Below are positions 31-14,007 of a stretch of 30,192 nt of DNA, piece by piece. A model generated the notes under the pieces. That model had not been told where the DNA came from. It did not search any database and saw only the letters and a list, made by a program, of their open reading frames with translations. Where the stretch lies: positions 1 through 30,192 of IMG/VR virus record IMGVR_UViG_3300046011_006513; one strand, given 5' to 3'. Position 1 is the stretch's first letter. Each line of letters starts with the position of its first letter. The translations under genes were made by a program, and so were the position numbers. This DNA comes from a virus.

Positions 31-3000
31 TTAACTTTCACCATAAGCTACAGAAATCCAATAAGTAGTCCCAGCTAAATTAGTACTACTGTTTGTATCT
101 ATTATAAAACTTCCTGATACTTTACTATCTATAGTCCAAGTTCTTGAATCCTCTCCTGTTATTGTTATAGCATAATTATTGTTTGTAAATGGTGTTGAAA
201 AAGTAACAGTTGCTCTTTTAGGATTTCCTGTAAATGATGTATTTGCTACGTTACCTGATTTTGTTGTTAATCCTCCTGATCCTGCATTTAAAGCATAAGA
301 TGCTGTTAAAGCAAATGAAGAACTTAAAGCAAATGAAGAACTTGTTGCTATAGAGGATGTTAAAGCAAATGAAGAACTTAATGCTTGAGTAGCAAACGAT
401 GAAGTTCCTAAAACACTTCCTGTAAACGATCCTGTAAATGATCCTGTTCTAAATGATCCAGTGAAACTGTTAAACGCTGTTAAAGTTGTATAAGCAGGTG
501 CAAAGGAAGCAGTTAAAGCAAATGAAGAACTTAAAGCATTATTAGCATAAGAGGCTGTTCCTAATAAACTGCCTGTAAATGAGCCTGTAAAAGACCCTGT
601 TGTGTTTGTTGGAGAAAATGATGCACTTAAGGCATATGAACTACTAATAGCAAATGATGAACTTAATGCATATGAACTACTTAAGGCATATGATGAACTA
701 GTTGATATTGAAGCAGTTGATGCAAATGATGAACTAATTGCTTGTAAAGCATTTGATGCCCAACTAGCTGTTCCTAATAAACTACCTGTAAAACTACCTG
801 TAAATGATCCTGTAGTGTTTGTTGGAGCAAATGAAGCAGATGTTGCAAATGAAGAACTTATACTAAAAGATGAGGTGGTTGCAAATGAAGAACTTAAAGC
901 ATTTGTAGCATAAGAAGCAGTACCTAATAAACTTCCAGTAAATGAACCTGTAAATGATCCAGTTGTATTTGTTGGAGCAAATGATGCTGTTAAAGCAAAT
1001 GATGAACTTGTCGCTATAGAGGCTGTTGAAGCAAATGATGAACTAACAGCGTTTAGTACGTAAGATGCTGTTTGAGCAGTTACTACATATGATGCTGTTA
1101 AAGCATTAACTACATACGAAGCAGTCGCAGCATAAGACGCACTAGTAGCAATAGATGCAGTTAATGTATAAGAAGAACTTATTGCATTAGAAGCTGTACC
1201 TAATAATGAACCTGTAAAATTACCGTTAAATGAACCACTAAATGAACCTGTGTTTGATAAAAATTGATCTACTCTATTTGCTGTTACAATAAGTGAAGGT
1301 ATGCCTGGTACTACTCCAAATGCTGATTCTGCATGTAATCGTACGTTAGCATCAGGTGAATACCACATTAATTGAAAGTAGTCATTTGCAGCAGCATTAA
1401 CAAAGAAATTCCATGCTGCGACATAGTGAGCACCATTACCTTGTAATTCTACAGATGTAGCAGAATCACTTATGTCAGTTCCATTTTTTCTAATCCATAT
1501 CCATATCTCATCTGTTCCACTGTCTGTTTTATCTACTTGTGCTGAGAATTGTATGTCATAAACTCCTGGGTTTTGTACTTTAATATAGGTATTGAAGGGG
1601 TTTGTTGATCCTGAAATAGACACTCCATTAGTAATGTCAGTCACATTCAAAGACATTGATCTAGCTGTTCCTGCTACATTTGTCTGTGTTTGTGTAGAGT
1701 AAAAACTACCATAAGAACCGGTAGATGTATTAAATGAAGTACTTCCACTTAAATTAGCTGTTATTGTAACCTGTCCTAAACCACTTATTGGTGATAAAAC
1801 AATATTAGGACCTGCTAATAATTGAGTTACACCACCATTTAAAGCATAAGATGCACTTAAAGCATTTGTAGCATAAGAGGCAGTTCCTAAAAACGAACCT
1901 GTAAATGAGCCTGTAAATGAGCCTGTTGTATTTGTTGGAGCAAATGATGCACTTAAAGCATAAGAAGCACTTGTAGCAATAGATGCTGTTGCAGCGTAAC
2001 TTGAACTAACAACACTTCCTAATAATACTGATGCTGTTGCTGCATATGAAGATGATCTTGCTTGTTCTGCAAATAAAGCATAAGATGCTGTTGCTACAGA
2101 TCCGGATTGAGATACAGTAACATCAAATGTAGTGTTATCTCCTCGTGTAAATGTTATGGTTGTATTAGCAGCTGAAGCTGTTATCACACCACGTAGTGGT
2201 AATGATGCAGTTGTTGCAAAAGAAGAACTTAAAGCATTATTAGCATAAGAGGCTGTTCCTAACAATGAACCTGTAAAACTGCCTGTGAATGAACCTGTAG
2301 TGTTAGTTGGAGCAAATGATGCACTAAGAGCATATGAACTACTAACAGCAAATGATGAAGTAGTAGCAAATGATGAACTTATAGCTCTTGAGGAACTTAA
2401 TGCAAATGATGACGTTCCTAAAAATGAACCTGTAAAGGATCCTGTGAATGAACCTGTATTGTATGAGCTTGTAAAAGCATTAAAACTTGAAGTTGTTACA
2501 AATGAACTTGTGTTAATAGTTGTTCCTGCATTAAGAGCAAAAGATGCAGTTAATGCAAATGAAGAACTTAAAGCATTTGTAGAATAGGAAGCTGTTCCTA
2601 ATAAACTTCCTGTAAACGATCCAGTAAATGAACCTGTAGTATTTATTGGAGCAAATGATGCACTTAAGGCATATGATGAACTTAAAGTATAAGATGAACT
2701 TGTTGCTATTGAAGCAGTAGCAGCATATGAAGCACTAGTTGCTCTTGAGGCTGTAGAAGCAAATGAACTACTTACTGCTTGTAATACATAAGATGCAGTT
2801 TGAGCTGTTGTTACGAAAGAAGCAGTCGCCGCATAAGACGCACTTGTTGAACTAGATGCATAACTTGCACTTATAGCATTTAGCACATAAGATGATGTTG
2901 TTGCATAAGATGAACTTAAAGCATTATTAGCATATGATGCTGTTCCTAATAATGAGCCTGTTATTGAAGGAATATTAGTACTACCTGTTACTTCAAAACT

Positions 3001-4098
3001 ACCACTTACAATAGTTCTTCCTATTAAGGTTTGTGTATCATCAGTTGCATCACCAAATTGGTTTGATCCTGATGAATATATTACTGAAGCAGATTCATAA
3101 CTTATATTTAAATAAGTTATACTTGCTGTTCCGTTTAGTGTTAAATTACCGTTAAATGTTAAATCTTGATTTAATGTATTTAAATAAGATGCTGTTGAAG
3201 CAAATGATGAACTAGTTGCTATTAAAGAGGTTGATGCAAATGAAGAACTTAAGGCTTGATTTGCGTAACTTGCTGTACCTAATAAACTACCTGTAAATGA
3301 TCCTGTATAAGATCCAGTTCTAAAAGAACTAGTAAAATTATTAAATGTTGTTAATAGAGTATAACTTGGAGCAAATGAAGCAGTTGAAGCAAATGAAGAA
3401 CTTAAAGCTTGTTCTGCAAATAAAGCATAAGATGCTGTTGATACAGATCCAGACTGTGAAACGGTTACATCAAATGTAGTGTTATCTCCTCGTGTAAATG
3501 TTAGGGTTGTATTATTTGCTGAAGCTGTTATTATTCCACGTAATGGTAATGAAGAGGTTGATGCAAATGATGAACTTATTGATTGAGATGAACTTATAGA
3601 AAAACTTGAAGTACCAAGTAATGAGCCGGTAAAACTACCAGTGAATGATCCTGTGTTATAACTTGAAGTAAATGAATTAAAGCTTGAAGTTGTTACGAAT
3701 GAACCTGTGCTTATAGTTGTTCCTGCATTTAAGGCAAATGATGCTGTTAATGCAAATGATGAACTTAAAGCGTTTGTAGAATAAGAAGATGTACCTGTTA
3801 AATTTCCTATAAAAGAACCGGAAAATGATCCTGTGTAAGAACCGGAAAATGTTGATAGGGTTCTCCAATTTGATGTACTATCCCAATCTAATGATCCTGT
3901 TGTTTGACCATAAAAACCATAAAATTCTTGTGAAGAAGATACAAATATAATAGCTCCTAGTTTTCTTTTATTATCAGGAATTGAACCTGTTTCTGATAGT
4001 GATCCTAAAGGGTAACTATTTCCTCTTAATTGAGTTATATCAACTAAAGCCCTATCGGGATTATTATGTTCTAATATGTCAGGGTAAAAAATTGGCAT
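31..4098 (-). CDS. Long tail fibre / receptor-binding protein with Ser-rich repeats, C1q-like and lectin-like domains
   Basis: A 1355-residue fibre protein, presumably trimeric and surface-exposed on the tail. The N-terminal ~85 residues are non-repetitive and probably attach to the particle. Most of the rest is a low-complexity array of units such as TGSFTGSFTGSLLGTASYA and ALSSSFALTASFA, with about a dozen GSFTGS blocks. Three inserts break the array. A short beta segment beginning LPLRG occurs twice (about 180-217 and 633-667). A non-repetitive stretch at about 307-377 contains DDTQTLIGRT. A C1q/TNF-like jelly-roll lies at about 785-946, with the signatures GVYDIQFSAQ, WIRKNGTDI and YFQLMW. 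The last ~80 residues (VTFSTPF, GEDSRTWTI) match a C-terminal domain common on phage fibres and resembling H-type lectins, which is likely the receptor-binding tip. The gene sits 4 bases downstream of the shorter fibre gene. The fold names rest on motif recognition only. Confidence 0.88.
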   Translation of the reverse strand: MPIFYPDILEHNNPDRALVDITQLRGNSYPLGSLSETGSIPDNKRKLGAIIFVSSSQEFYGFYGQTTGSLDWDSTSNWRTLSTFSGSYTGSFSGSFIGNLTGTSSYSTNALSSSFALTASFALNAGTTISTGSFVTTSSFNSFTSSYNTGSFTGSFTGSLLGTSSFSISSSQSISSSFASTSSLPLRGIITASANNTTLTFTRGDNTTFDVTVSQSGSVSTASYALFAEQALSSSFASTASFAPSYTLLTTFNNFTSSFRTGSYTGSFTGSLLGTASYANQALSSSFASTSLIATSSSFASTASYLNTLNQDLTFNGNLTLNGTASITYLNISYESASVIYSSGSNQFGDATDDTQTLIGRTIVSGSFEVTGSTNIPSITGSLLGTASYANNALSSSYATTSSYVLNAISASYASSSTSASYAATASFVTTAQTASYVLQAVSSSFASTASRATSASYAATASIATSSSYTLSSSYALSASFAPINTTGSFTGSFTGSLLGTASYSTNALSSSFALTASFALNAGTTINTSSFVTTSSFNAFTSSYNTGSFTGSFTGSFLGTSSFALSSSRAISSSFATTSSFAVSSSYALSASFAPTNTTGSFTGSFTGSLLGTASYANNALSSSFATTASLPLRGVITASAANTTITFTRGDNTTFDVTVSQSGSVATASYALFAEQARSSSYAATASVLLGSVVSSSYAATASIATSASYALSASFAPTNTTGSFTGSFTGSFLGTASYATNALSASYALNGGVTQLLAGPNIVLSPISGLGQVTITANLSGSTSFNTSTGSYGSFYSTQTQTNVAGTARSMSLNVTDITNGVSISGSTNPFNTYIKVQNPGVYDIQFSAQVDKTDSGTDEIWIWIRKNGTDISDSATSVELQGNGAHYVAAWNFFVNAAANDYFQLMWYSPDANVRLHAESAFGVVPGIPSLIVTANRVDQFLSNTGSFSGSFNGNFTGSLLGTASNAISSSYTLTASIATSASYAATASYVVNALTASYVVTAQTASYVLNAVSSSFASTASIATSSSFALTASFAPTNTTGSFTGSFTGSLLGTASYATNALSSSFATTSSFSISSSFATSASFAPTNTTGSFTGSFTGSLLGTASWASNALQAISSSFASTASISTSSSYALSSSYALSSSFAISSSYALSASFSPTNTTGSFTGSFTGSLLGTASYANNALSSSFALTASFAPAYTTLTAFNSFTGSFRTGSFTGSFTGSVLGTSSFATQALSSSFALTSSIATSSSFALSSSFALTASYALNAGSGGLTTKSGNVANTSFTGNPKRATVTFSTPFTNNNYAITITGEDSRTWTIDSKVSGSFIIDTNSSTNLAGTTYWISVAYGES
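2063..2200 (-). repeat. Copy 2 of a ~140-base intragenic duplication in the long fibre
   Basis: This block encodes the LPLRG insert and its flank. It matches the block at 3409-3548 almost base for base. One shared run, from acatcaaatgtag to ggttgtatta, has a single mismatch in about 45 bases. The rest of the array is much more diverged, so this is probably a recent duplication or gene-conversion product. Confidence 0.75.
3409..3548 (-). repeat. Copy 1 of the ~140-base intragenic duplication in the long fibre
   Basis: Partner of the block at 2063-2200. Both are preceded by a nearly identical segment encoding ASYALFAEQA, and both encode a beta-strand-rich insert with the signature FTRGDNTTFDVTVSQSG. 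Confidence 0.75.
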
Positions 4099-4102
4099 TT
4101 TG

Positions 4103-5713
4103 TTATGATATTGCTAGTGTTGTTCCGCTTGCGAAAGCTTTGTCTGAATTTGATTTATATATTCTTACTAAAATGGAAGCACCGAATGCATTTGTTACAG
4201 TAAAATCTCCTAAATTGGTAAATGCTGTTAAAACAGATAATGCTCCATTTTGAATTATATTTGATAAGTTTCCATAAGAAGCAGGATATATTACATAAGT
4301 AAAATTTCCTAATATATTATTAGCTGCTGTACAAGTTGCAGTCCATGCTCTATCTGTATCTAAAGTAGAAGTAACTGAAGCATTTACTACTGTTTGTGCT
4401 GTAGCATTATCTGTTGGGGTGGTTGGTGATGCTGATAGATAATTTCTCCATTGAAATGATATTGAAGTAGTAGTACCTGTAATAGCTGCTCCTGTATCTG
4501 ACCGTCTACCATTTACAGTAAAAGTAACTGTACCGTTTGTAGTAGCTCTATTAATTGTATAACTACCTCCAATACTTCTTACATTAGATGATGATAATAC
4601 ATTATCTCCAAAATAAAATGTTTGTGTTCCTATATCAGCTCCTGATCCTGTCCATGATGAGCTTATAGGAAATATACTTGTTGGGTTATCAGCTGCTGCT
4701 GAAAATGAAGCTGTATTTACTGTAAATGAATCTCCTACATCTCTAGCAGCAGTTGATATATTAGATCCTCCATTTCTCATTACTAAAGATGATAAAGTAG
4801 GAGGAATATATGTAACAAGCATTGTTCTTAATATACTCTCTAATCCTGTTCCTGTAGGTAATGTTGTTCCTGATGTTAAAGCACCAACTGTTTGATTAGT
4901 TAAAATTAGATTTTGTAATATTGTATTTGATGCTGTTGTTGCTATTCCATTAAATGAACCTGTAAATGATCCTGTGTTATAAGAGCTTGTAAAAGCATTA
5001 AAACTAGAAGTTGTTACAAATGAGCTAGTATTTATAGTTGTTCCTGCATTAAGAGCAAAAGAAGCTGTTAATGCAAATGAAGAACTTAAAGCGTTAGAAG
5101 CGTATGATGCTGTCCCAAGTAATGAGCCTGTAAAACTACCTGTGAATGAACCTGTAGTGTTTGTAGGAGCAAATGAAGCGCTTAAAGCGTATGATGAACT
5201 TACAGCATATGAACTACTAATACTAAAAGATGAACTTACAGCTCTTGATGAACTTATAGCAAATGAAGAACTAAGAGCAAAACTTGAACTTAAAGTGTAA
5301 GATGAGCTTATTGATTGAGATGAACTTACAGAAAAACTTGCTGTTCCTGATAAACTACCTGTAAATGAACCTGTGAATGATCCAGTATTATAAGATGAAG
5401 TAAAATTATTAAAACTACTTGTAGTTACAAATGAACCTGTGTTTATAGTTGTTCCTGCATTTAAGGCAAATGATGCAGTTAATGCAAATGATGAACTTAA
5501 AGCATAAGATGAGCTTACTGCATTTGATATACTTCCTGAAAAATATGATGCTGATACTGAGTTTTCGGCCCAACTAGCTGTCCCTTGTAATGAACCGGTA
5601 AATGATCCACTAAATGAACCGGTAAAGGAACCACTATTTGATATACCACCGCCATTTGGATTTGTTGCAAATACTCCAATAGGTACATTATCTAAAAATC
5701 TAATCTTTGCCAT
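4103..5713 (-). CDS. Short tail fibre / adhesin, paralogous to the long fibre
   Basis: A 536-residue protein. The first ~25 residues are unique and contain FLDNVPIGVF. Residues ~28-260 are the same Ser-rich repeats as in the neighbouring long fibre, including the block ending SSFNAFTSSYNTGSFTGSF found in both. The remaining ~275 residues form a non-repetitive C-terminal region. It contains an Ig-like, Thr/Ser-rich part (SLVMRNGGSNIS, FTVNGRRSDTG) and a terminal part with YVIYPASYGNLSNI. That last pattern is known from C-terminal regions of phage fibres in Bacteroidota phages and prophages. It probably works with the long fibre at the baseplate. The start is supported by an A-rich leader and by a TAATATTTATAAC element 11 bases upstream. 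Confidence 0.82.
   Translation of the reverse strand: MAKIRFLDNVPIGVFATNPNGGGISNSGSFTGSFSGSFTGSLQGTASWAENSVSASYFSGSISNAVSSSYALSSSFALTASFALNAGTTINTGSFVTTSSFNNFTSSYNTGSFTGSFTGSLSGTASFSVSSSQSISSSYTLSSSFALSSSFAISSSRAVSSSFSISSSYAVSSSYALSASFAPTNTTGSFTGSFTGSLLGTASYASNALSSSFALTASFALNAGTTINTSSFVTTSSFNAFTSSYNTGSFTGSFNGIATTASNTILQNLILTNQTVGALTSGTTLPTGTGLESILRTMLVTYIPPTLSSLVMRNGGSNISTAARDVGDSFTVNTASFSAAADNPTSIFPISSSWTGSGADIGTQTFYFGDNVLSSSNVRSIGGSYTINRATTNGTVTFTVNGRRSDTGAAITGTTTSISFQWRNYLSASPTTPTDNATAQTVVNASVTSTLDTDRAWTATCTAANNILGNFTYVIYPASYGNLSNIIQNGALSVLTAFTNLGDFTVTNAFGASILVRIYKSNSDKAFASGTTLAIS
4940..5640 (-). repeat. Coding repeat array of the short fibre, shared with the long fibre
   Basis: Same units as in the downstream gene. 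The stretch at about 4975-5095 is closely similar at DNA level to 2452-2580 of the long fibre: both carry gagcttgtaaaagcattaaa and tagttgttcctgcattaaga. The two genes have therefore exchanged or duplicated modules. Confidence 0.8.
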
Positions 5714-9173: not shown

Positions 9174-9198
9174 GAAAAAGCCAATCTAACGATTGGCT
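9174..9198 (-). terminator. Rho-independent terminator after phoH
   Basis: On the minus strand an 8-bp perfect stem (AGCCAATC / GATTGGCT) with a 4-base loop is followed directly by a T run. It closes the amidinotransferase-decarboxylase-endonuclease-PhoH block. Confidence 0.85.
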
Positions 9199-9221
9199 TC
9201 CACACATATTATTCTAAATAT

Positions 9222-9908
9222 TTAATCTCTAACTTCTTCGTAAATTCTAAGAATTTCTTCTACTATTTCATGACGATGATTTTTCTTTAATGAGATTGTT
9301 CTAACACCTTTTACTCTTGCATCTAAAATATCAAAAAATCCAATACCAGAATCTCTTTTACTTTTTAGATCTACTTGCGAAATATCACCACAAAATACAA
9401 TTTTACCCCCTTTACCTAAACGACCTAACATCATTTCGGTTTGTGAGTGTGTTATGTTTTGACATTCGTCTACAATAACAAATGATTTAGGAAACGTTCT
9501 ACCTCTCATAAATGCAAAAGGTACAATTTCTATTTGACCATCTGCTACTAATTTATCTATTTTTATTTTATCATATAGAAGATATAAGTTAGAATAAATA
9601 GGTGCTAACCAAGGATCCATTTTTTCTTTTAAATCACCTGGTAAGAAACCAATTTCTTCTTTAGATACAGTTGGTCTTGTAATAATGATTTTTTCCATTT
9701 CTTTTTTAAAAACCATATCTAAAGCTATTTGACAAGCTAATAGTGTTTTACCTGAACCAGCCATACCTTTTATAAGTGTTACAGGATTATCTAAAATTAT
9801 CTGCTTGGCTTCTTTCTGTTCTGAATTTAATTCGATTTTGAATTTGATTGGACCTTTTGGTTTGGTTTTATTTTTAAAAACCTCGTCGTCATGTTTTGGT
9901 GGGTTCAT
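9222..9908 (-). CDS. phoH: PhoH-like P-loop ATPase
   Basis: A 228-residue protein with the complete PhoH ATPase core. Walker A is GMAGSGKT (48-55), IITRPTV (75-81) follows, and Walker B is FVIVDECQN (143-151) before a Q-T-x-M-L-x-R-x-G block and GDxSQ (CGDISQVD). The N-terminal 20 residues are Lys- and Pro-rich. PhoH proteins are common in T4-like and other phages; the bacterial family is linked to phosphate starvation and RNA metabolism, but the phage role is unsettled. It is the last gene before the terminator, and the GIY-YIG gene lies just upstream of it. Confidence 0.92.
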   Translation of the reverse strand: MNPPKHDDEVFKNKTKPKGPIKFKIELNSEQKEAKQIILDNPVTLIKGMAGSGKTLLACQIALDMVFKKEMEKIIITRPTVSKEEIGFLPGDLKEKMDPWLAPIYSNLYLLYDKIKIDKLVADGQIEIVPFAFMRGRTFPKSFVIVDECQNITHSQTEMMLGRLGKGGKIVFCGDISQVDLKSKRDSGIGFFDILDARVKGVRTISLKKNHRHEIVEEILRIYEEVRD

Positions 9909-9932: not shown

Positions 9933-10511
9933 TTATTTATCATTTTTCCATAACCATACATAACCATGAGCTGTTTTAGCTCTACCGTTTAATACGTTAT
10001 TAACACCGTTATAAACATCATTTGCTTCACTACTACTTAACCATTCTTTAATTAATATTCCATCTTTTAATTGCAAACATGGTTTTCTATTAGATTCAGC
10101 TCGTTTTATAACATATTCTTGTGGTTGTTTTTTTCCTTTCATAGAATTTGGTTTTCCTTTATTTGATTTGCTAATATTTTGTTTTCTTAATTCATTATCT
10201 TTATATCCGGTAACTTTTTTATTTTTACTTATTAATTTTTTAATTTCATCATCATGAAAATCCGGTCCTCCTCCTCCTTTATTTTTATTTAAAAGAATAA
10301 ACCCCCACATTTTAAATTGAGATATCCAATATTTTTCCCAAAATTTCCATTCTTTTATATCTACAACATCTATTATTTCTAAAATAGTTTTTTTACCAAA
10401 TGTTCTTTTATGATTATTTATTCTATCCTTAATATTGTTTGTTTTTCCAATATAAAAAGGTATATTGTCATCATTATGTAAAAAATAAATATTTACCGTT
10501 TTTATTTCCAT
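9933..10511 (-). CDS. GIY-YIG homing endonuclease with NUMOD-type DNA-binding modules
   Basis: A 192-residue free-standing homing endonuclease. The N-terminal nuclease domain shows YFL (9-11), FYIGKT (19-24), the catalytic Arg in DRINNH (R30, H34), the metal-ligand Glu at about E59 in FWEKYWI, and N75 in LLNKNKGGG. A Lys-rich NUMOD3-like linker follows (ISKSNKGKPNSMKGKKQ). A C-terminal NUMOD1-like helix-turn-helix comes last (LSSSEANDVYNGVNNVLNG, ending YVWLWKN). It overlaps the end of the decarboxylase gene by 10 bases and separates it from phoH, as expected for a mobile gene that inserted at a gene boundary. No group I intron hallmarks were noticed. Confidence 0.9.
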   Translation of the reverse strand: MEIKTVNIYFLHNDDNIPFYIGKTNNIKDRINNHKRTFGKKTILEIIDVVDIKEWKFWEKYWISQFKMWGFILLNKNKGGGGPDFHDDEIKKLISKNKKVTGYKDNELRKQNISKSNKGKPNSMKGKKQPQEYVIKRAESNRKPCLQLKDGILIKEWLSSSEANDVYNGVNNVLNGRAKTAHGYVWLWKNDK

Positions 10512-11218
10512 TTTATTTTTATTAACTTATCCAAACCAGCCTCAACATGGGTGTGATCCTCTTGACATAGTTCAAAATCAAAGCGCTTATCTAAAGGTAA
10601 TATTAATTCTGTTTGACTACCCCAACGCACTAACCCAAATCTATCGTTTTGTGAACATATATCTTGTTGTTTTTTAAATGAAGATATAACATTTACATCT
10701 TCATCAGCTATTAAACACATATTATATTGATATTCTAAAGAAAGTGAATTTATTTTTATTTTCATTCTTTCATTATTTTTAAGATATTCTAGATTTGCTG
10801 GGTTAATTTTACCGTTAAAGATATCTTTTTCGGTTGCTAACATAGGCTTATTTGTTGATTCTATTGCCTCTAAATATTCATAATCAATAACACCACCATA
10901 TGGAATTCTTATAATGTGAGGATCATAAAATGACATAAATATACCAACAACTAAAGATGGTTTGTTATAATCTTTATCACCCATTGCATCTTGTAAAGTA
11001 TAATTTATACCTTTAATTTCCACAATAGGTTCAGTAGGATCATTAATTACTTTTTGATATAAGATAGTTCCATCAGCTGGTGAATAAAAATGTTCATTAT
11101 CAATATACATTGTTCTTAAAGGATCTCTAAAGAAAAATTGATTTGATAATTGTTCAATAGACATTTTTTCAGCCTTTTTTACATCTGTATTAATCCAGTC
11201 TTTTAATGTTTTAGCCAT
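10502..11218 (-). CDS. psd: Phosphatidylserine decarboxylase-like enzyme
   Basis: A 238-residue protein of the pyruvoyl-dependent phosphatidylserine decarboxylase family, which turns phosphatidylserine into phosphatidylethanolamine. Family motifs appear in order. QFFFRDPLR (27-35) is followed by YSPADGTI with D49, then VVGIFMSFYDPHIIRIP with H101, a conserved NNER (148-151), and the C-terminal FGLVRWGSQTELILP. That last block is the FGS-type self-cleavage site, with S201 expected to become the pyruvoyl group and to leave a ~38-residue alpha chain. The D-H-S triad is complete, so activity is plausible. No membrane anchor is seen, which agrees with the short archaeal/bacterial subtype. The start overlaps the amidinotransferase stop as TAATG, so the two are probably co-translated. 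The physiological substrate is not proven by sequence. Confidence 0.88.
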   Translation of the reverse strand: MAKTLKDWINTDVKKAEKMSIEQLSNQFFFRDPLRTMYIDNEHFYSPADGTILYQKVINDPTEPIVEIKGINYTLQDAMGDKDYNKPSLVVGIFMSFYDPHIIRIPYGGVIDYEYLEAIESTNKPMLATEKDIFNGKINPANLEYLKNNERMKIKINSLSLEYQYNMCLIADEDVNVISSFKKQQDICSQNDRFGLVRWGSQTELILPLDKRFDFELCQEDHTHVEAGLDKLIKIKWK

Positions 11219-12132
11219 TATATTAATGATTTAGTATAATCAACATAATTTAAGTGCATTACACAGCATGATAACATAGCACCTGATTTCATATATTCTG
11301 ATAAATTGAATATAACTGGTTCTAAACCTTCATTAGCGCATATTCTTTCTAATGTATCTATTTTATGTTTTTCTAACTCATATAAAGGATCAGTACGTTT
11401 TAATTCTGAAATGTTAGATGCACATAAAATCATATTTCCCATTCTTACTGAATTTGTTAATCCACCAAAAGCATCATCAACACTAATATCAATAATTTCT
11501 GTATATTTTCCTATTTCTTCTAATTCTTCAGGTGTAAATAATTCAGTACAAACTAATGTTTTTTTATCAGTTAATGGAAATACTGAACAATCTAAATGAT
11601 ATAAATAAGGTTCAACCATTTCTATTTTAATAATATTCATATCAAAGTTTTGTTCCATCCACTCATAAGCTTCTTTAGTTGAACGTTGACCGTATCCACC
11701 TATGTAAGTGTTACCACCAATGTATTTTAAATCTGCTTCACCTTCCCATTTAAATGGACATAGATGAGTATTATAACCCATTAAATTAAAGAACGGTTTT
11801 GCTACTAATTCTTCACCTTGTCTAGGTTCGGAAGTAAAATTGGATAATAACACAATATTATCGTCTTTAATGTGGGGTAATTGCATTCCCACATTAGCCA
11901 CGTAAACTTGGTCTTGATAATCACCATACGATGGTAATAAATAAACTAAAGAACCACCAGCTATAAAATTATATAAATCCATAAACTGTTTATAAGCTTT
12001 AGGTTTATTAATTTTTAAATCTTCGGGTGATAATTCTTCCATCCAAATATTGTTTGGATTTTCAGTGCTTAGAGAAAAGGGGAAGTTTAATACATAACTT
12101 GGAACCTTTAATTGTGAAGGGGTTTCTATCAT
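11218..12132 (-). CDS. Amidinotransferase / dimethylarginine dimethylaminohydrolase-fold enzyme
   Basis: A 304-residue protein of the guanidino-group-modifying superfamily, which includes DDAH, arginine and agmatine deiminases and amidinotransferases. The pattern includes YVANVGMQLP near residue 78. The acidic motif is KWEGEADLKYIGG (E130 to D134), and the catalytic His is in YLYHLDCSVFPL (H179, with D181). The C-terminal nucleophile is in KSGAMLSCCVMHL (C289, possibly C290). The catalytic set looks intact. The substrate (arginine, methylarginine or another guanidine) cannot be read from the sequence. It is the first gene after the capsid terminator, lies downstream of an 18-bp palindrome and is coupled to the decarboxylase by TAATG. 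Confidence 0.85.
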   Translation of the reverse strand: MIETPSQLKVPSYVLNFPFSLSTENPNNIWMEELSPEDLKINKPKAYKQFMDLYNFIAGGSLVYLLPSYGDYQDQVYVANVGMQLPHIKDDNIVLLSNFTSEPRQGEELVAKPFFNLMGYNTHLCPFKWEGEADLKYIGGNTYIGGYGQRSTKEAYEWMEQNFDMNIIKIEMVEPYLYHLDCSVFPLTDKKTLVCTELFTPEELEEIGKYTEIIDISVDDAFGGLTNSVRMGNMILCASNISELKRTDPLYELEKHKIDTLERICANEGLEPVIFNLSEYMKSGAMLSCCVMHLNYVDYTKSLI

Positions 12133-12162
12133 TTTAAAACTATTTTTATTTATCTATACATA

Positions 12163-12180
12163 TTATATAGGCCTATATAA
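12163..12180. promoter_or_regulatory. 18-bp perfect palindrome upstream of the amidinotransferase gene
   Basis: TTATATAGG/CCTATATAA is fully self-complementary. It lies 30 bases before the ATG at 12132 and just past the capsid terminator. The coding strand also holds TATATAAT-like promoter sequence overlapping the palindrome. A dimeric repressor or activator binding at a promoter would explain it. There is no loop, so it is unlikely to act as an RNA hairpin. Confidence 0.5.
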
Positions 12181-12216: not shown

Positions 12217-12240
12217 AAAAAACCCCACTTTTGGTGGGGT
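12217..12240 (-). terminator. Strong Rho-independent terminator after the major capsid gene
   Basis: On the minus strand a 7-bp GC-rich stem (ACCCCAC / GTGGGGT) with a 5-base loop is followed by six or more T residues. It ends capsid transcription and isolates the following metabolic cassette. A second 16-bp palindrome (12265-12280, TATCTAAT/ATTAGATA) overlaps the capsid stop codon. Confidence 0.92.
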
Positions 12241-12273
12241 TCTTTAATTTTAGTTATAAAGTGTTATCTAATA

Positions 12274-14007
12274 TTAGATAGTGTTTAAACCACTAACATA
12301 GATTTTCGCGTAGAATTCAGGTCTTAACATTTTCTTAGCGTAACGAGTTAATAGACCTTTTCTTGGAGTGAAAGTTTCTGGATCGTACACTAACGGAGTC
12401 ATGATTAACGGAATGTACGGAGCAAATACAGCACCTGTTTCTAGGAACTGACTACCTCTGTAACCCATTAACATCAAATTCTCAGTCATGTAAGGATTTT
12501 TGTAAACCTTGTAACGACCGTTTACAGTACCAATTTTTTGTACACCGAAAGCATATTCCATTTGATCAGCTTCACCATTGCTTGTAGAAGCAAATCCTGG
12601 GATTGATTCTAAGATAGTAGCTACTGTTGGAGAAGTTACGATAAAATTAGCACCTCCACGTAAAGTTAATTGGTGGATTTTGTTGCTTAATTTTTGGATT
12701 TTAGTACCTAAAGTTTGGAACCATTGACCTTGAGTGTTATAATAACCTGAAGTTCCTAAGTTAGTTATAGTACCTTGGGTTGAAATAGTTTGGTTGTTAA
12801 TTGCTGACCAGTATTCAGTACCAGCTGCAGCATCTTCGATTAACATTTCTAAGATTTCTAAGTCAATTTCCATTGAAATATACTCACTCATGATGTTAGT
12901 TAATTCAGCTTCAGCATCAATGTTTTGGTAAGCACTTAAATCTTGAGCGAACTCAGGAGTCCATACAGCTTTTAACTTTTTAGTTTTAGCAGTGATGGCT
13001 TGTGATTGCATTTTAACATTAATTTCTGGGATTACGATGTTTGAACTACTTAAAGAGTTAGGTACAGATACGTCTGTTCTATCTGCTTCGAAATCAGCTC
13101 TAGCATCATTACCAGATAATGTACTACTGTTATTACCTTTGTTATAGAAAATAGTAGCAGAAGCACCGGCAGTATTATTAGCACCTAAAGTAGCTGAAGC
13201 TGTATAGAAGAAACTAATAGTTCCTGCTGTATAGTTATAAGTTGTAAACTGAGGTAAAATATTAGAAGCAGTAAATGTAGAACCAGATACTAAAGTGAAA
13301 CCTCTTACTGCATCTGGATCAAAGTTAGTTAATACAGAAGCTGTAGCAACAGTTACTTTGTATATTCTGTTTGCAATTACTGATGCTGAATATTCAGAAT
13401 CAAAATTTAATTCAGCCCATGATGCTGTAACTACTGAACCAGTACCAGCACCAATAGTAGGTAAAACACCACCAGCAGTAGATCCAGTTAATGGAACAGA
13501 AGCTGAGAATTGGTTAGTAGAGTAAGTAAATTTGTTTGCTGGGTTGTATAAACCGCCTTCAGCTGCTGGAGTAGCAAATGGATATTGACCAGAAGCATTT
13601 CTGTTACCATATAAAGAAGAACCTGCAGTAAATGGATTTTTGTTGTTTCCGTATTGGAAATCTAAGAAGAATACTAAACCAGAAGGCATGTTCATTGGTT
13701 GAACAGAAACGAATTCTTTAGCTACGATAGTTCCGAATACTTTTCTTACTAATGGTAATGCAATACCAGCCCAGTTTTCACCTTGTGTACCAGAAGTGAA
13801 TCCAGAGTTTGAAGCAACAGTGTTAGTTTCTGTTACTAATTGTTTTGCTTGGTTTTCTAATAAAAGGGACATATTGTTACTGTCCACAGTAGTTAAGCCT
13901 TCTAATAGACCTGTTTTAGTCCATTTAGAAGCTAATTTAGCAGCATCACTTTGTAGTGATTTCCAGTTTCCTGCTGCGCTTTCTAATAATTGATGTACGT
14001 TTGACAT
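12274..14007 (-). CDS. 23: Major capsid protein, gp23-like
   Basis: A 577-residue T4-type (HK97-fold) major capsid protein. The N-terminal ~60 residues are a helical propeptide. Possible gp21 cleavage sites are LLE at 49-51 and VTE at 58-60, the latter just before TNTVASNSGF. The mature part begins with the family block GENWAGIALPLVRKVFGTIV and VSVQPMNMPSGLVFFLDFQYG, which matches T4 gp23. The middle (about 150-300) is a Ser/Thr/Ala-rich insertion. The C-terminal half has the typical FAQDLSAYQNIDAEAELTNI and LTRYAKKMLRPEFYAKIYV blocks. It follows the scaffold gene by 27 bases, has an A-rich leader without a Shine-Dalgarno sequence and is followed by a strong terminator, as expected for the most abundant product. 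Confidence 0.97.
   Translation of the reverse strand: MSNVHQLLESAAGNWKSLQSDAAKLASKWTKTGLLEGLTTVDSNNMSLLLENQAKQLVTETNTVASNSGFTSGTQGENWAGIALPLVRKVFGTIVAKEFVSVQPMNMPSGLVFFLDFQYGNNKNPFTAGSSLYGNRNASGQYPFATPAAEGGLYNPANKFTYSTNQFSASVPLTGSTAGGVLPTIGAGTGSVVTASWAELNFDSEYSASVIANRIYKVTVATASVLTNFDPDAVRGFTLVSGSTFTASNILPQFTTYNYTAGTISFFYTASATLGANNTAGASATIFYNKGNNSSTLSGNDARADFEADRTDVSVPNSLSSSNIVIPEINVKMQSQAITAKTKKLKAVWTPEFAQDLSAYQNIDAEAELTNIMSEYISMEIDLEILEMLIEDAAAGTEYWSAINNQTISTQGTITNLGTSGYYNTQGQWFQTLGTKIQKLSNKIHQLTLRGGANFIVTSPTVATILESIPGFASTSNGEADQMEYAFGVQKIGTVNGRYKVYKNPYMTENLMLMGYRGSQFLETGAVFAPYIPLIMTPLVYDPETFTPRKGLLTRYAKKMLRPEFYAKIYVSGLNTI

Follow-up and report, generated by a model that had tools for sequence, protein, structure and literature searches.

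Taken together, our profile searches, structure predictions and genome comparisons suggest that two overlapping genes in the phage DNA analysed here (the window, the whole stretch of 30,192 nucleotides) serve a non-lipid, arginine-linked amine pathway, a reading that we regard as likely, and as likelier than putrescine exactly. In the more specific form that we favour, at close to even probability, the two enzymes would lead from free arginine by way of ornithine to putrescine or a closely related amine; that the product is putrescine itself we place a little short of even. The 304-residue enzyme would begin by hydrolysing L-arginine to ornithine, CO2 and two NH3, like ArgZ/AgrE; the 238-residue protein, predicted to be soluble, would undergo autocleavage at Gly200-Ser201, gain a pyruvoyl cofactor in this way and then decarboxylate ornithine. 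The amine cation may then neutralise phage DNA or RNA and so aid replication during infection. We infer the substrates, step order, autocleavage, solubility, product and its use from the observations below.

The families of the two enzymes, their residues, their pairing and their neighbours come directly from computation. Both genes are intact and lie on the minus strand, as do all features named here. The gene for the 304-residue enzyme, ArgZ/AgrE-like and putatively modifying guanidino groups, occupies 11218-12132 (assigned by PDB profile search, predicted structure and active-site residues), and that for the 238-residue decarboxylase, of the phosphatidylserine decarboxylase (PSD) superfamily, pyruvoyl-type and of a branch marked by Gly-Ser-Gln, occupies 10502-11218 (PF02666, residues and tree). 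A TAATG stop/start overlap at 11216-11220, read from 11220 to 11216, couples them through a single shared base. A sequence-only reading had described two intact, co-translated metabolic genes joined in this way, and it proves correct and more than a coincidence, with the same 1-base overlap (-1 spacing) recurring in 91 of 105 distinct pairs among the IMG/VR loci kept. Upstream lies the gene for the major capsid protein gp23 (12274-14007; PF07068, 3e-77), followed by a strong intrinsic-terminator-like hairpin and T-run at 12217-12245; downstream lies phoH (9222-9908; PF02562, 3e-61), with a terminator-like hairpin and T-run at 9176-9201. Both come from a hairpin scan of the window with five terminator-like sites, where 1.4 would be expected; the capsid hairpin enters this count once for each strand. 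These terminators, which the same reading took as the bounds of the pair, are in place; what it missed is a 192-residue GIY-YIG homing endonuclease gene (9933-10511; PF01541 2e-5, phrog_314 3e-10) that stands between the decarboxylase gene and phoH and overlaps the end of the former by 10 bases. Ahead of the pair, ATATGTATA at 12155-12163 is, judging by motif counts, a putative promoter-like motif: of the 72 distinct spacers between gp23 and the pair, 70 contain ATAT[TG]TAT, against a shuffled mean of 3.0, and ATATKTATA matches the window nine times, always on the coding strand, a number that 12 of 100 shuffles reach. The T4 late promoter TATAAATA was rejected here, with 3/72 spacers against 1.9 when shuffled; ATATKTATA fits instead.

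For the 304-residue protein we found no Pfam match at E<=1, and hmmsearch against the PDB returned AgrE (E 7e-23) and ArgZ (3e-21), the enzymes known for this hydrolysis of L-arginine. Its predicted structure (pLDDT 87.6; the predictions for the two proteins used 37 and 36 sequences) was aligned to ArgZ by VIA-align with Z 28.1 and an rmsd of 2.4 over 260 residues. Other guanidino-modifying folds scored lower, namely DDAH and arginine deiminase (both 22.9), SxtG (21.9), AGAT (21.0), HsvA (20.6) and agmatine deiminase (19.3), and the amidinotransferase folds as a group (AGAT, StrB, SxtG, HsvA) reached 20.4-21.9 against 28 for ArgZ. Moreover, the residues aligned to ArgZ N22, N71, R90, E118, R139, H168 and C264 (N71 and C264 being named in PDB titles) are present in 105/105 phage rows, and the set is kept in the 57 close bacterial rows bar gaps in 3-5 of them, with the cysteine excepted in 2/57; the ArgZ-type Ala-Asn is retained as well. 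ArgZ Asn71, Glu118, His168 and Cys264 correspond to N80, E130, H179 and C289 of the window, so that in the catalytic set proposed earlier E130, D134 and H179 hold and the cysteine, left there between C289 and C290, is C289. The phage enzyme thus shares with the N-terminal domain of cyanobacterial ArgZ/AgrE its fold (Z about 28, with 22-23% identity over about 260 residues) and its active-site set with N71 and C264, but it is single-domain, without ArgZ's fused C-terminal domain, is paired with a decarboxylase, and falls far under the NCBIfam Arg_dihydro cut-off (70 bits against 450). Dimethylarginine dimethylaminohydrolase (DDAH) was considered and rejected: the NCBIfam cut-off for that enzyme is missed too (88 bits against 300), and the Lys that DDAH carries two residues past the catalytic His (PMC11659421) is replaced by D181 in 105/105 phage rows, if our mapping of the position is right. 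The hydrolase tree took 22 of the 105 phage rows and 53 of the 57 close bacterial rows; the other 13 of the 70 bacterial loci scored weakly (51-74 bits) and had been classed as distant relatives. We conclude that the protein is probably an ArgZ/AgrE-like arginine dihydrolase, on sequence and modelled fold. The earlier assignment to enzymes acting on guanidino groups is supported by this match, while the name amidinotransferase gives way to arginine dihydrolase as the closest class.

The 238-residue protein belongs to the decarboxylase superfamily by profile search (PF02666, E=5e-21, 75.7 bits against a 22-bit gathering cut-off), as had been supposed, and the cut-off is passed in 12/12 long phage records. 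Its catalytic set D49-H101-S201, also proposed earlier, was confirmed in sequence: D49, H101, G200, S201 and Q202 are present in 97/97 phage rows, and H101, G200 and S201 in 43/43 bacterial rows, D49 being found in 41 with two gaps. It therefore resembles the short-type phosphatidylserine/archaetidylserine decarboxylases (PF02666) in superfamily, D-H-S set and Gly-Ser cleavage site. However, all 97 phage and 43 bacterial rows read Gly-Ser-Gln, whereas the housekeeping PSDs have Arg or Thr (15/15); E130 and D172 are conserved only in the Gly-Ser-Gln branch, which has Q190 and H224 as further conserved residues and stands apart in the tree. There, a split (94/87) sets 15 housekeeping PSDs apart from 65 phage and pair-type rows, with long branches and bootstrap values that have not settled; cultured-phage sequences likewise sit on long branches and take no stable deep position in our trees. 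The residue table is built from the 43 among 48 bacterial pair-type PSDs that score above 200 and are neither split nor short, and from the 15 among 18 housekeeping PSDs that the pair-type profile picked up (L241, L242 and L246 excluded); the PSD tree took 22 of the 97 phage rows. In addition, the NCBIfam PSD equivalog cut-off is missed by far (best 80 bits against 183), and an ordinary second PSD is found in 18 of 20 bacterial genomes that carry the Gly-Ser-Gln branch. The N-terminus of the branch is less hydrophobic than that of housekeeping PSDs (the best 19-residue hydropathy spans -0.43 to 0.55 across the 97 phage rows and 0.26 to 2.33 among the 15 housekeeping PSDs), but the two ranges overlap, and the protein may still bind membranes peripherally. 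The best Foldseek match of the predicted structure is PsiD (E 9.5e-4). Against E. coli PSD the model scores Z 9.7-11.0, with an rmsd of 7.5 over 166 residues, and because EIIA-Glc outranks this protein (Z 13.1 versus 11.0) the fold comparison is supportive only; the model is poor over residues 125-144 and gives no reliable position for E130. By sequence, then, this is a PSD-superfamily protein of a separate Gly-Ser-Gln branch and not a housekeeping PSD.

The two genes keep close company in phages. Both are present in 45 of 50,697 phage records, which include several GenBank/RefSeq doubles or near-identical phages; all 45 decarboxylase-bearing records also hold the hydrolase, and 45 of 46 hydrolase-bearing records hold the decarboxylase (E<=0.01), while the one left over is a fragmentary match. 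One IMG/VR locus (L066) that looked hydrolase-only was discounted, since tblastn puts the start of the decarboxylase about 1 kb further on, where the contig end cuts the gene. The IMG/VR scans kept 80/223 and 80/183 relatives, and merging the overlapping loci of one contig left 105 distinct pairs; like the genome scan, these scans start from short conserved patterns and so are not exhaustive. Among IMG/VR loci with room, gp23 lies upstream of the pair in 91/92 (within 600 bases in 69), phoH downstream in 82/87 (within 300 bases in 79), and a homing endonuclease between pair and phoH in 3/87. The place beside the capsid gene is common in IMG/VR T4-like phages yet not universal: in Bacteroides phage DAC19 the pair sits among ligase, helicase, dUTPase and primase genes, in Campylobacter phage CPX the hydrolase adjoins gp41 and gp45, and in Campylobacter phages both genes co-occur but are unlinked. 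A role in DNA packaging only is weakened by the DAC19 pair and the CPX hydrolase, which lie among replication genes. At least three phage lineages carry the pair, an uncultured T4-like clade, Campylobacter Fletchervirus and the Bacteroides DAC-type, so the earlier remark that no T4-like genome was known with it does not hold: the 45 records and a large IMG/VR clade, cultured phages included, contain it. Functional coupling, as first proposed, is supported by this recurrence, by the unlinked co-occurrence in Campylobacter phages and by the reversed order in bacteria. We saw no exporter gene beside the phage pairs, and the product would therefore remain in the infected cell. A 7-deazaguanine DNA modification role was also discarded: QueD (PF01242) occurs in 8 of 12 long phage records, not with the decarboxylase throughout, and was not found in the decarboxylase-bearing G003, DAC19, NCTC12673 and CPX. 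Both window proteins fall in PHROG families of unknown function.

Additional support comes from bacteria, where the genes lie side by side in 48 of 57 loci, usually in reverse order to the phages, and in one further genome 600 kb apart. A MATE- or ABC-exporter-like gene is found within 2 kb in 47 of the 57 (Pfam typing covered five MATE and three ABC proteins; the others were counted as similar to a single MATE or a single ABC query); in the 33 loci with full flanks, 26 have it at 0-2 kb, none at 2-4, one at 4-6 and one at 6-8 kb. Ten Verrucomicrobial loci hold a family of PotD-like polyamine-binding proteins (one member typed, at 2e-53). In two cyanobacterial loci without the PSD-like gene, an unrelated PLP decarboxylase adjoins the hydrolase instead (PF01276 2e-77; PF02784 5e-38), one nearest to diaminopimelate decarboxylase and one to arginine/lysine decarboxylases, both loosely typed and far under cut-offs; together with the separate branch and the pairing, this replacement would point towards ornithine or arginine decarboxylation by the PSD-like protein. 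Three alphaproteobacterial loci (L213-L215) also have the hydrolase without the PSD-like gene; none of 12 neighbouring proteins typed there is a decarboxylase, and the large upstream gene, a candidate PLP decarboxylase, is of TPR/cyclase type in all three. The pair is sparse in four phyla (1/292, 2/288, 3/398 and 3/396 genomes at E<=1e-40, query genome included), with carriers that include Xenorhabdus and actinomycetes. Of 20 pair-bearing genomes, 10 have SpeA or an Orn/Lys/Arg decarboxylase above its cut-off (11 if one split SpeA is counted), so the pair does not generally stand in for putrescine synthesis.

These same bacterial data feed the strongest of the alternatives, which we nevertheless think rather unlikely: that the product is not putrescine but some other, specialised amine derived from arginine, such as a toxin, signal or protective cation, exported by bacteria via MATE or ABC proteins and in phages kept or released at lysis. 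The nearby exporters (47/57 loci), the very patchy spread across four phyla, carriers such as Xenorhabdus and actinomycetes, and the standard decarboxylase already present in 10-11 of 20 genomes all fit it, and an exporter does suit a special product better than putrescine. The phages would, though, require an intracellular use for such a product, and beyond the two enzymes and the exporter we did not find a tailoring enzyme widely common to the bacterial loci. A polyamine role in turn has against it that spermidine synthase (PF01564) is absent from 12/12 phage records, and a spermidine pathway was rejected on that count. It would be very improbable, in our view, that arginine breakdown serves to free ammonia or nitrogen for nucleotide synthesis with the decarboxylase simply clearing ornithine; the two NH3 liberated in ArgZ chemistry and the position of the DAC19 pair and CPX hydrolase among replication and nucleotide genes agree with this, but the bacterial exporters and the displacing decarboxylases are left unexplained.

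Two further readings keep closer to the gene names. The original proposal that phosphatidylethanolamine is made from host phosphatidylserine, altering membrane headgroups alongside an amidinotransferase, could appeal to the PF02666 score above gathering, the retained D-H-S and Gly-Ser, the E. coli PSD match (Z 9.7-11.0) and the GenBank names in Campylobacter phages, which are phosphatidylserine decarboxylase and amidinotransferase. We find it unsupported and improbable, since the protein falls in a PSD branch of its own and both its partner and its bacterial neighbours point to arginine-derived amines; moreover, an ordinary PSD is also encoded by 18 of 20 carriers, a constant arginine-hydrolase partner makes no sense for lipid synthesis, and the nearest relative of the 304-residue enzyme is ArgZ and not an amidinotransferase. 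No more credible is a transferase that moves the amidino group of arginine onto an amine made by the decarboxylase, giving an agmatine- or homoagmatine-like product. The 304-residue enzyme does share a superfamily with such transferases, HsvA, a polyamine amidinotransferase, is a weak match (E 0.057; Z 20.6), and a guanidino product would suit an exporter; yet hydrolases are closest by far in sequence and fold, the ArgZ-type Ala-Asn is kept, and 304 residues compare with 340-364 resolved residues in SxtG, AGAT, StrB1 and HsvA.

The arginine-to-putrescine route that we prefer has partial precedents. PsiD, the L-tryptophan decarboxylase of Psilocybe, is a PSD-family enzyme acting on free tryptophan (PMC12603985), though it is fungal, has another substrate and shares about 11% identity with the 238-residue protein. 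Chloroviruses make putrescine with an ODC/ADC and an agmatine iminohydrolase (PMC7019647), likewise a virus-encoded decarboxylase and a guanidino-group hydrolase, but the former is ODC-type, the latter agmatine-type and the virus algal. Phages encode SpeD-derived self-cleaving pyruvoyl ODC/ADC enzymes (PMC9992855, PMC10407285), which are phage-encoded and pyruvoyl-dependent like the enzyme proposed here but belong to the SpeD family and not the PSD family; the PNAS paper on them reports no arginase in phages, and the words dihydrolase and phosphatidylserine are absent from both main texts. Some published viruses encode single polyamine-synthesis steps only. Our literature searches found no publication treating the pair as a unit, and its enzyme families are not reported for viral polyamine synthesis; the pair itself is already known by sequence in cultured phages.

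Uncultured T4-like phages commonly carry the pair, in most cases with the capsid gene on one side and phoH on the other, and the names phosphatidylserine decarboxylase and amidinotransferase given to the Campylobacter phage genes are probably misleading. If putrescine or a relative is the product, this would be a new viral arginine-to-polyamine route; it would also show prokaryotes putting a lipid-enzyme fold to work outside lipid metabolism and would suggest a testable function for the bacterial operon that includes an exporter. Tentatively, and at somewhat less than even probability, we suggest that the unnamed Gly-Ser-Gln branch of the PSD superfamily decarboxylates free ornithine or arginine with an ArgZ-like partner, in bacteria alongside an exporter and in at least three phage lineages during infection. 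Should this be true, pyruvoyl-dependent decarboxylases of basic amino acids would have arisen independently once more, and phages would have an arginine-to-putrescine route made of enzyme families not yet reported in that role.

The window is a complete 30,192-base IMG/VR record. It is identical, on the opposite strand, to positions 4,150-34,341 of G001, a 171,684-base record and full-length relative, and its minus strand carries in order the gp23 capsid gene, the 304-aa gene (11218-12132), the 238-aa gene (10502-11218), a GIY-YIG homing endonuclease gene (9933-10511) and phoH. The two genes overlap stop to start as TAATG, and strong terminator-like hairpins lie 3' of gp23 and 3' of phoH, confirming the junction and flanking terminators described in the sequence-only reading; its placement of phoH downstream also stands, although the endonuclease gene intervenes. 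Homing endonuclease genes are also found touching or overlapping the decarboxylase gene of Campylobacter phages and of Bacteroides phage DAC19, and this gene may therefore be a recurrent homing site. About 31 bases 5' of the pair starts ATATGTATA, and of the 72 distinct spacers between gp23 and the pair, 70 have ATAT[TG]TAT 20-45 bases 5' of the start, versus 3.0 in dinucleotide shuffles; we read this element as the phage's own promoter, possibly a late one. The window has nine ATATKTATA sites, every one on the coding (minus) strand, their number being unremarkable (5.1 expected; nine reached in 12 of 100 shuffles). This motif also precedes many genes throughout G001, frequently 12-30 bases from the start codon, and looks like a phage-specific promoter that differs from the T4 promoter (TATAAATA). 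Elsewhere in G001, genes for QueC (PF06508, 6e-37), QueD and a QueE-like radical SAM protein lie close together at 66-71 kb, so that its DNA may carry 7-deazaguanines (the subject of PMC6884629, in the excerpts consulted); eight of the 12 long phage records have QueD. A tightly coupled cluster of sugar-type genes (glycosyltransferase-like, DegT aminotransferase, transketolase-like half, epimerase and TylF-type methyltransferase) occupies 86.8-97.4 kb, and diverged direct repeats (78-91% identity) between adjacent large genes, at about 365-5500 of the window and 28.6-37 kb of G001, probably mark paralogous tail or fibre proteins.

The 304-aa protein has no Pfam match at E<=1. Searched against the PDB, a profile of 39 relatives hit two arginine dihydrolases of cyanobacteria, AgrE (7e-23) and ArgZ (3e-21), and ArgZ/AgrE is likewise the top match of the protein's AlphaFold2 model (pLDDT 87.6) in both Foldseek and VIA-align (Z 28.1, rmsd 2.4 over 260 residues), ahead of DDAH and arginine deiminase (Z 22.9 each), AstB (22.8), SxtG (21.9), AGAT (21.0), HsvA (20.6) and agmatine deiminase (19.3). 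In the alignment, ArgZ N22, N71, R90, E118, R139, H168 and C264 (C264 and N71 being given as mutated sites in PDB titles of ArgZ complexes) correspond to N28, N80, R104, E130, R150, H179 and C289, which are unchanged in 105/105 phage rows and, save gaps in 3-5 rows, kept in 57 close bacterial rows, two of which have a different residue at the C289 position. Moreover, D181 lies two residues past the catalytic His, a position that is Asp in arginine deiminases and Lys in DDAHs according to excerpts of PMC11659421, the mapping onto D181 being our own. Of 13 bacterial proteins that form a distant set, 11 carry Lys-Asp instead of Ala-Asn. Combined with ArgZ R90 and R139, which we take to bind the carboxylate, the ArgZ/AgrE-first matches, the kept active-site residues and D181 suggest that the substrate is likely L-arginine and that the enzyme is more probably a hydrolase than a transferase.

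The 238-aa protein matches PF02666 (5e-21) and is far below all NCBIfam phosphatidylserine decarboxylase (PSD) cut-offs (best 80 of 183 bits). We compared 15 housekeeping PSDs with 97 rows from phages and 43 pair-type rows from bacteria and found Gly-Ser-Gln at the cleavage site in every phage and pair-type row, versus Gly-Ser-Arg (9) or Gly-Ser-Thr (6) in the housekeeping proteins. Conserved in the Gly-Ser-Gln branch only are E130 and Q190 (each 97/97 phage, 43/43 bacterial), D172 (96/97, 43/43) and H224 (96/97, 42/43), while D49, H101 and N149 are common to both groups. The PSD tree, in which the bootstrap had not settled, sets the 15 housekeeping PSDs apart (support 94/87) and supports the IMG/VR phage clade (98/99). 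With a pair-type profile, 12 pair-type copies score 244-312 bits and the 15 housekeeping copies that it detects 22-48. Of 20 bacterial genomes, 18 hold a stronger, separate PF02666 gene besides the pair-type copy, the other two (G013 and G015) having a single match each. The N-terminus of this branch is less hydrophobic than that of housekeeping PSDs, although E. coli-type PSDs score low too, which keeps the difference from being decisive. Its model (pLDDT 81, weak at 125-144) has PsiD as best Foldseek match; in VIA-align E. coli PSD (Z 11.0, rmsd 7.5) and PsiD (9.0) are both exceeded by EIIA-Glc (13.1).

The sequence-only reading knew of no standard T4-like genome with this pair; that none has it is wrong given the 105 distinct IMG/VR pairs and 45 phage records found here. 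Among 50,697 phage records, 45 (39 Campylobacter and 6 Bacteroides phages, including several doubles or near-identical phages) encode the 238-aa protein, and all 45 encode the 304-aa protein; the only others with a 304-aa match are one further Campylobacter record, fragmentary and in two pieces (39% of the query), and a meaningless Serratia match (E=8). The genes are 15 bases apart in DAC19 and widely separated in Campylobacter phages, where the 304-aa gene adjoins gp41 and gp45 (CPX) and the 238-aa gene adjoins groES (NCTC12673), so that co-occurrence holds even without linkage. From 223 and 183 IMG/VR relatives 80 of each were retained, and both genes are present in 149 of 156 sources (155 loci plus the window), the other seven being two Campylobacter loci with unlinked genes and five cut by contig ends (L066 among them, after an insertion). 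The one-base overlap recurs in 91 of the 105 distinct pairs. In loci with room, gp23 is upstream in 91/92 (69 of them within 600 bases), phoH is downstream in 82/87 (79 within 300 bases), and a GIY-YIG gene lies 3' in 3/87; a place next to the capsid gene characterizes one large phage clade and not the pair as such. PHROG places both proteins in families of unknown function (phrog_12670, phrog_12759).

A pattern-led search across 84,980 species genomes yielded 70 bacterial loci, of which 57 have a close homologue of the 304-aa protein (43-68% identity). A PSD-like gene adjoins the hydrolase gene in 48 of these, lying 5' of it in 46 (counting L218, whose called start overlaps, after reassignment), and the phage order occurs in L165, probably a phage contig within a MAG, and L221. 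L276, in a bacterial genome assembly (G457) from the phylum of G023, has a phage-order pair adjoining dUTPase-like and epimerase-like genes and is probably another phage lineage. Several bacterial subgroups recur in both trees (Verrucomicrobiales, Xenorhabdus, Sulfurimonas with Sedimenticola, Acidobacteria gp2). The hydrolase is rare in bacteria, found at E<=1e-40 in 1/292, 2/288, 3/398 and 3/396 genomes of four phyla, with the genome serving as centre counted each time. In Photorhabdus tasmaniensis (L209) an inserted gene splits the PSD-like gene, which is intact in Xenorhabdus relatives. Nine loci have no adjoining PSD-like gene: contig ends truncate three, in one the gene sits some 600 kb off, and in five (L182, L213-L216) it is missing from the entire available genome. 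Two of these five have another decarboxylase directly 3' of the hydrolase: Orn/Lys/Arg decarboxylase in Spirulina L216 (PF01276, 2e-77) and an Orn/DAP/Arg-type PLP enzyme in Dulcicalothrix L182 (PF02784, 5e-38), the latter with a gene of the agmatine deiminase family and one for a DrrA-type exporter ATPase after it. We read this as one decarboxylase swapped for an unrelated one. Seen at two loci, which the hydrolase tree places as sisters, this swap offers the strongest evidence that a basic amino acid would be the substrate of the PSD-like protein. The three alphaproteobacterial loci (L213-L215, rhizobia and relatives) all carry a TPR/cyclase-type gene upstream, and none of their typed neighbours is a decarboxylase; two hydrolase copies occur in one Mesorhizobium genome, the L215 copy lying close to resolvase and HamA genes.

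Taken together, these data lead us to propose, at nearly even chances, that the two enzymes would convert arginine to an amine in two steps, with putrescine as the leading product. That the PSD family can use a free amino acid is described for PsiD in excerpts of PMC12603985. Spermidine synthase was found in 0/12 phage records. SpeA is above cut-off in 7 and Orn/Lys/Arg decarboxylase in 5 of 20 pair-carrying bacterial genomes, together 10 (11 with the split SpeA of G010), a count covering these two families, so that in bacteria the unit does not simply stand in for putrescine synthesis. Of 57 bacterial loci, 33 have a MATE-like gene and 14 an MsbA-like ABC exporter no more than 2 kb away; as a control, in the 33 loci with full flanks such a gene is present in 26 at 0-2 kb, 0 at 2-4, 1 at 4-6 and 1 at 6-8 kb. 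A special product would better fit an exporter, and production of a different, exported amine is a rather unlikely alternative to putrescine. A solute-binding protein family recurs in ten Verrucomicrobial loci (its one typed member: PotD 2e-53, PotF 3.5e-40), and a sensor-kinase family in eight of the ten. The interpretation of the sequence-only reading is supported in part: it keeps its decarboxylase superfamily (PF02666) but loses its amidinotransferase, the 304-aa protein being nearest ArgZ/AgrE (Z 28.1 vs 21.0 for AGAT). Lipid remodelling by the phage, which that reading proposed, we consider improbable.

No paper on the pair was found in the open-licence literature searched. In the portions consulted, ocean viral genes include pssA, psd and creatine genes, not this pair (PMC11360552), and CP220 and CPt10 have a 'glycine amidinotransferase' inside radical-SAM clusters (PMC2853527). 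Chloroviruses encode an ODC/ADC and an agmatine iminohydrolase (PMC7019647), phage proteins raise putrescine (PMC11898732), and SpeD-derived pyruvoyl decarboxylases for ornithine and arginine occur in phages and bacteria (PMC9992855, PMC10407285), the PNAS paper of these two noting no arginase in phages; 'phosphatidylserine', 'dihydrolase' and 'amidinotransferase' are absent from both main texts. The arginine-to-amine pair, built from enzyme families not reported for such metabolism in the literature examined, would be a variant of virus-encoded polyamine-type metabolism.
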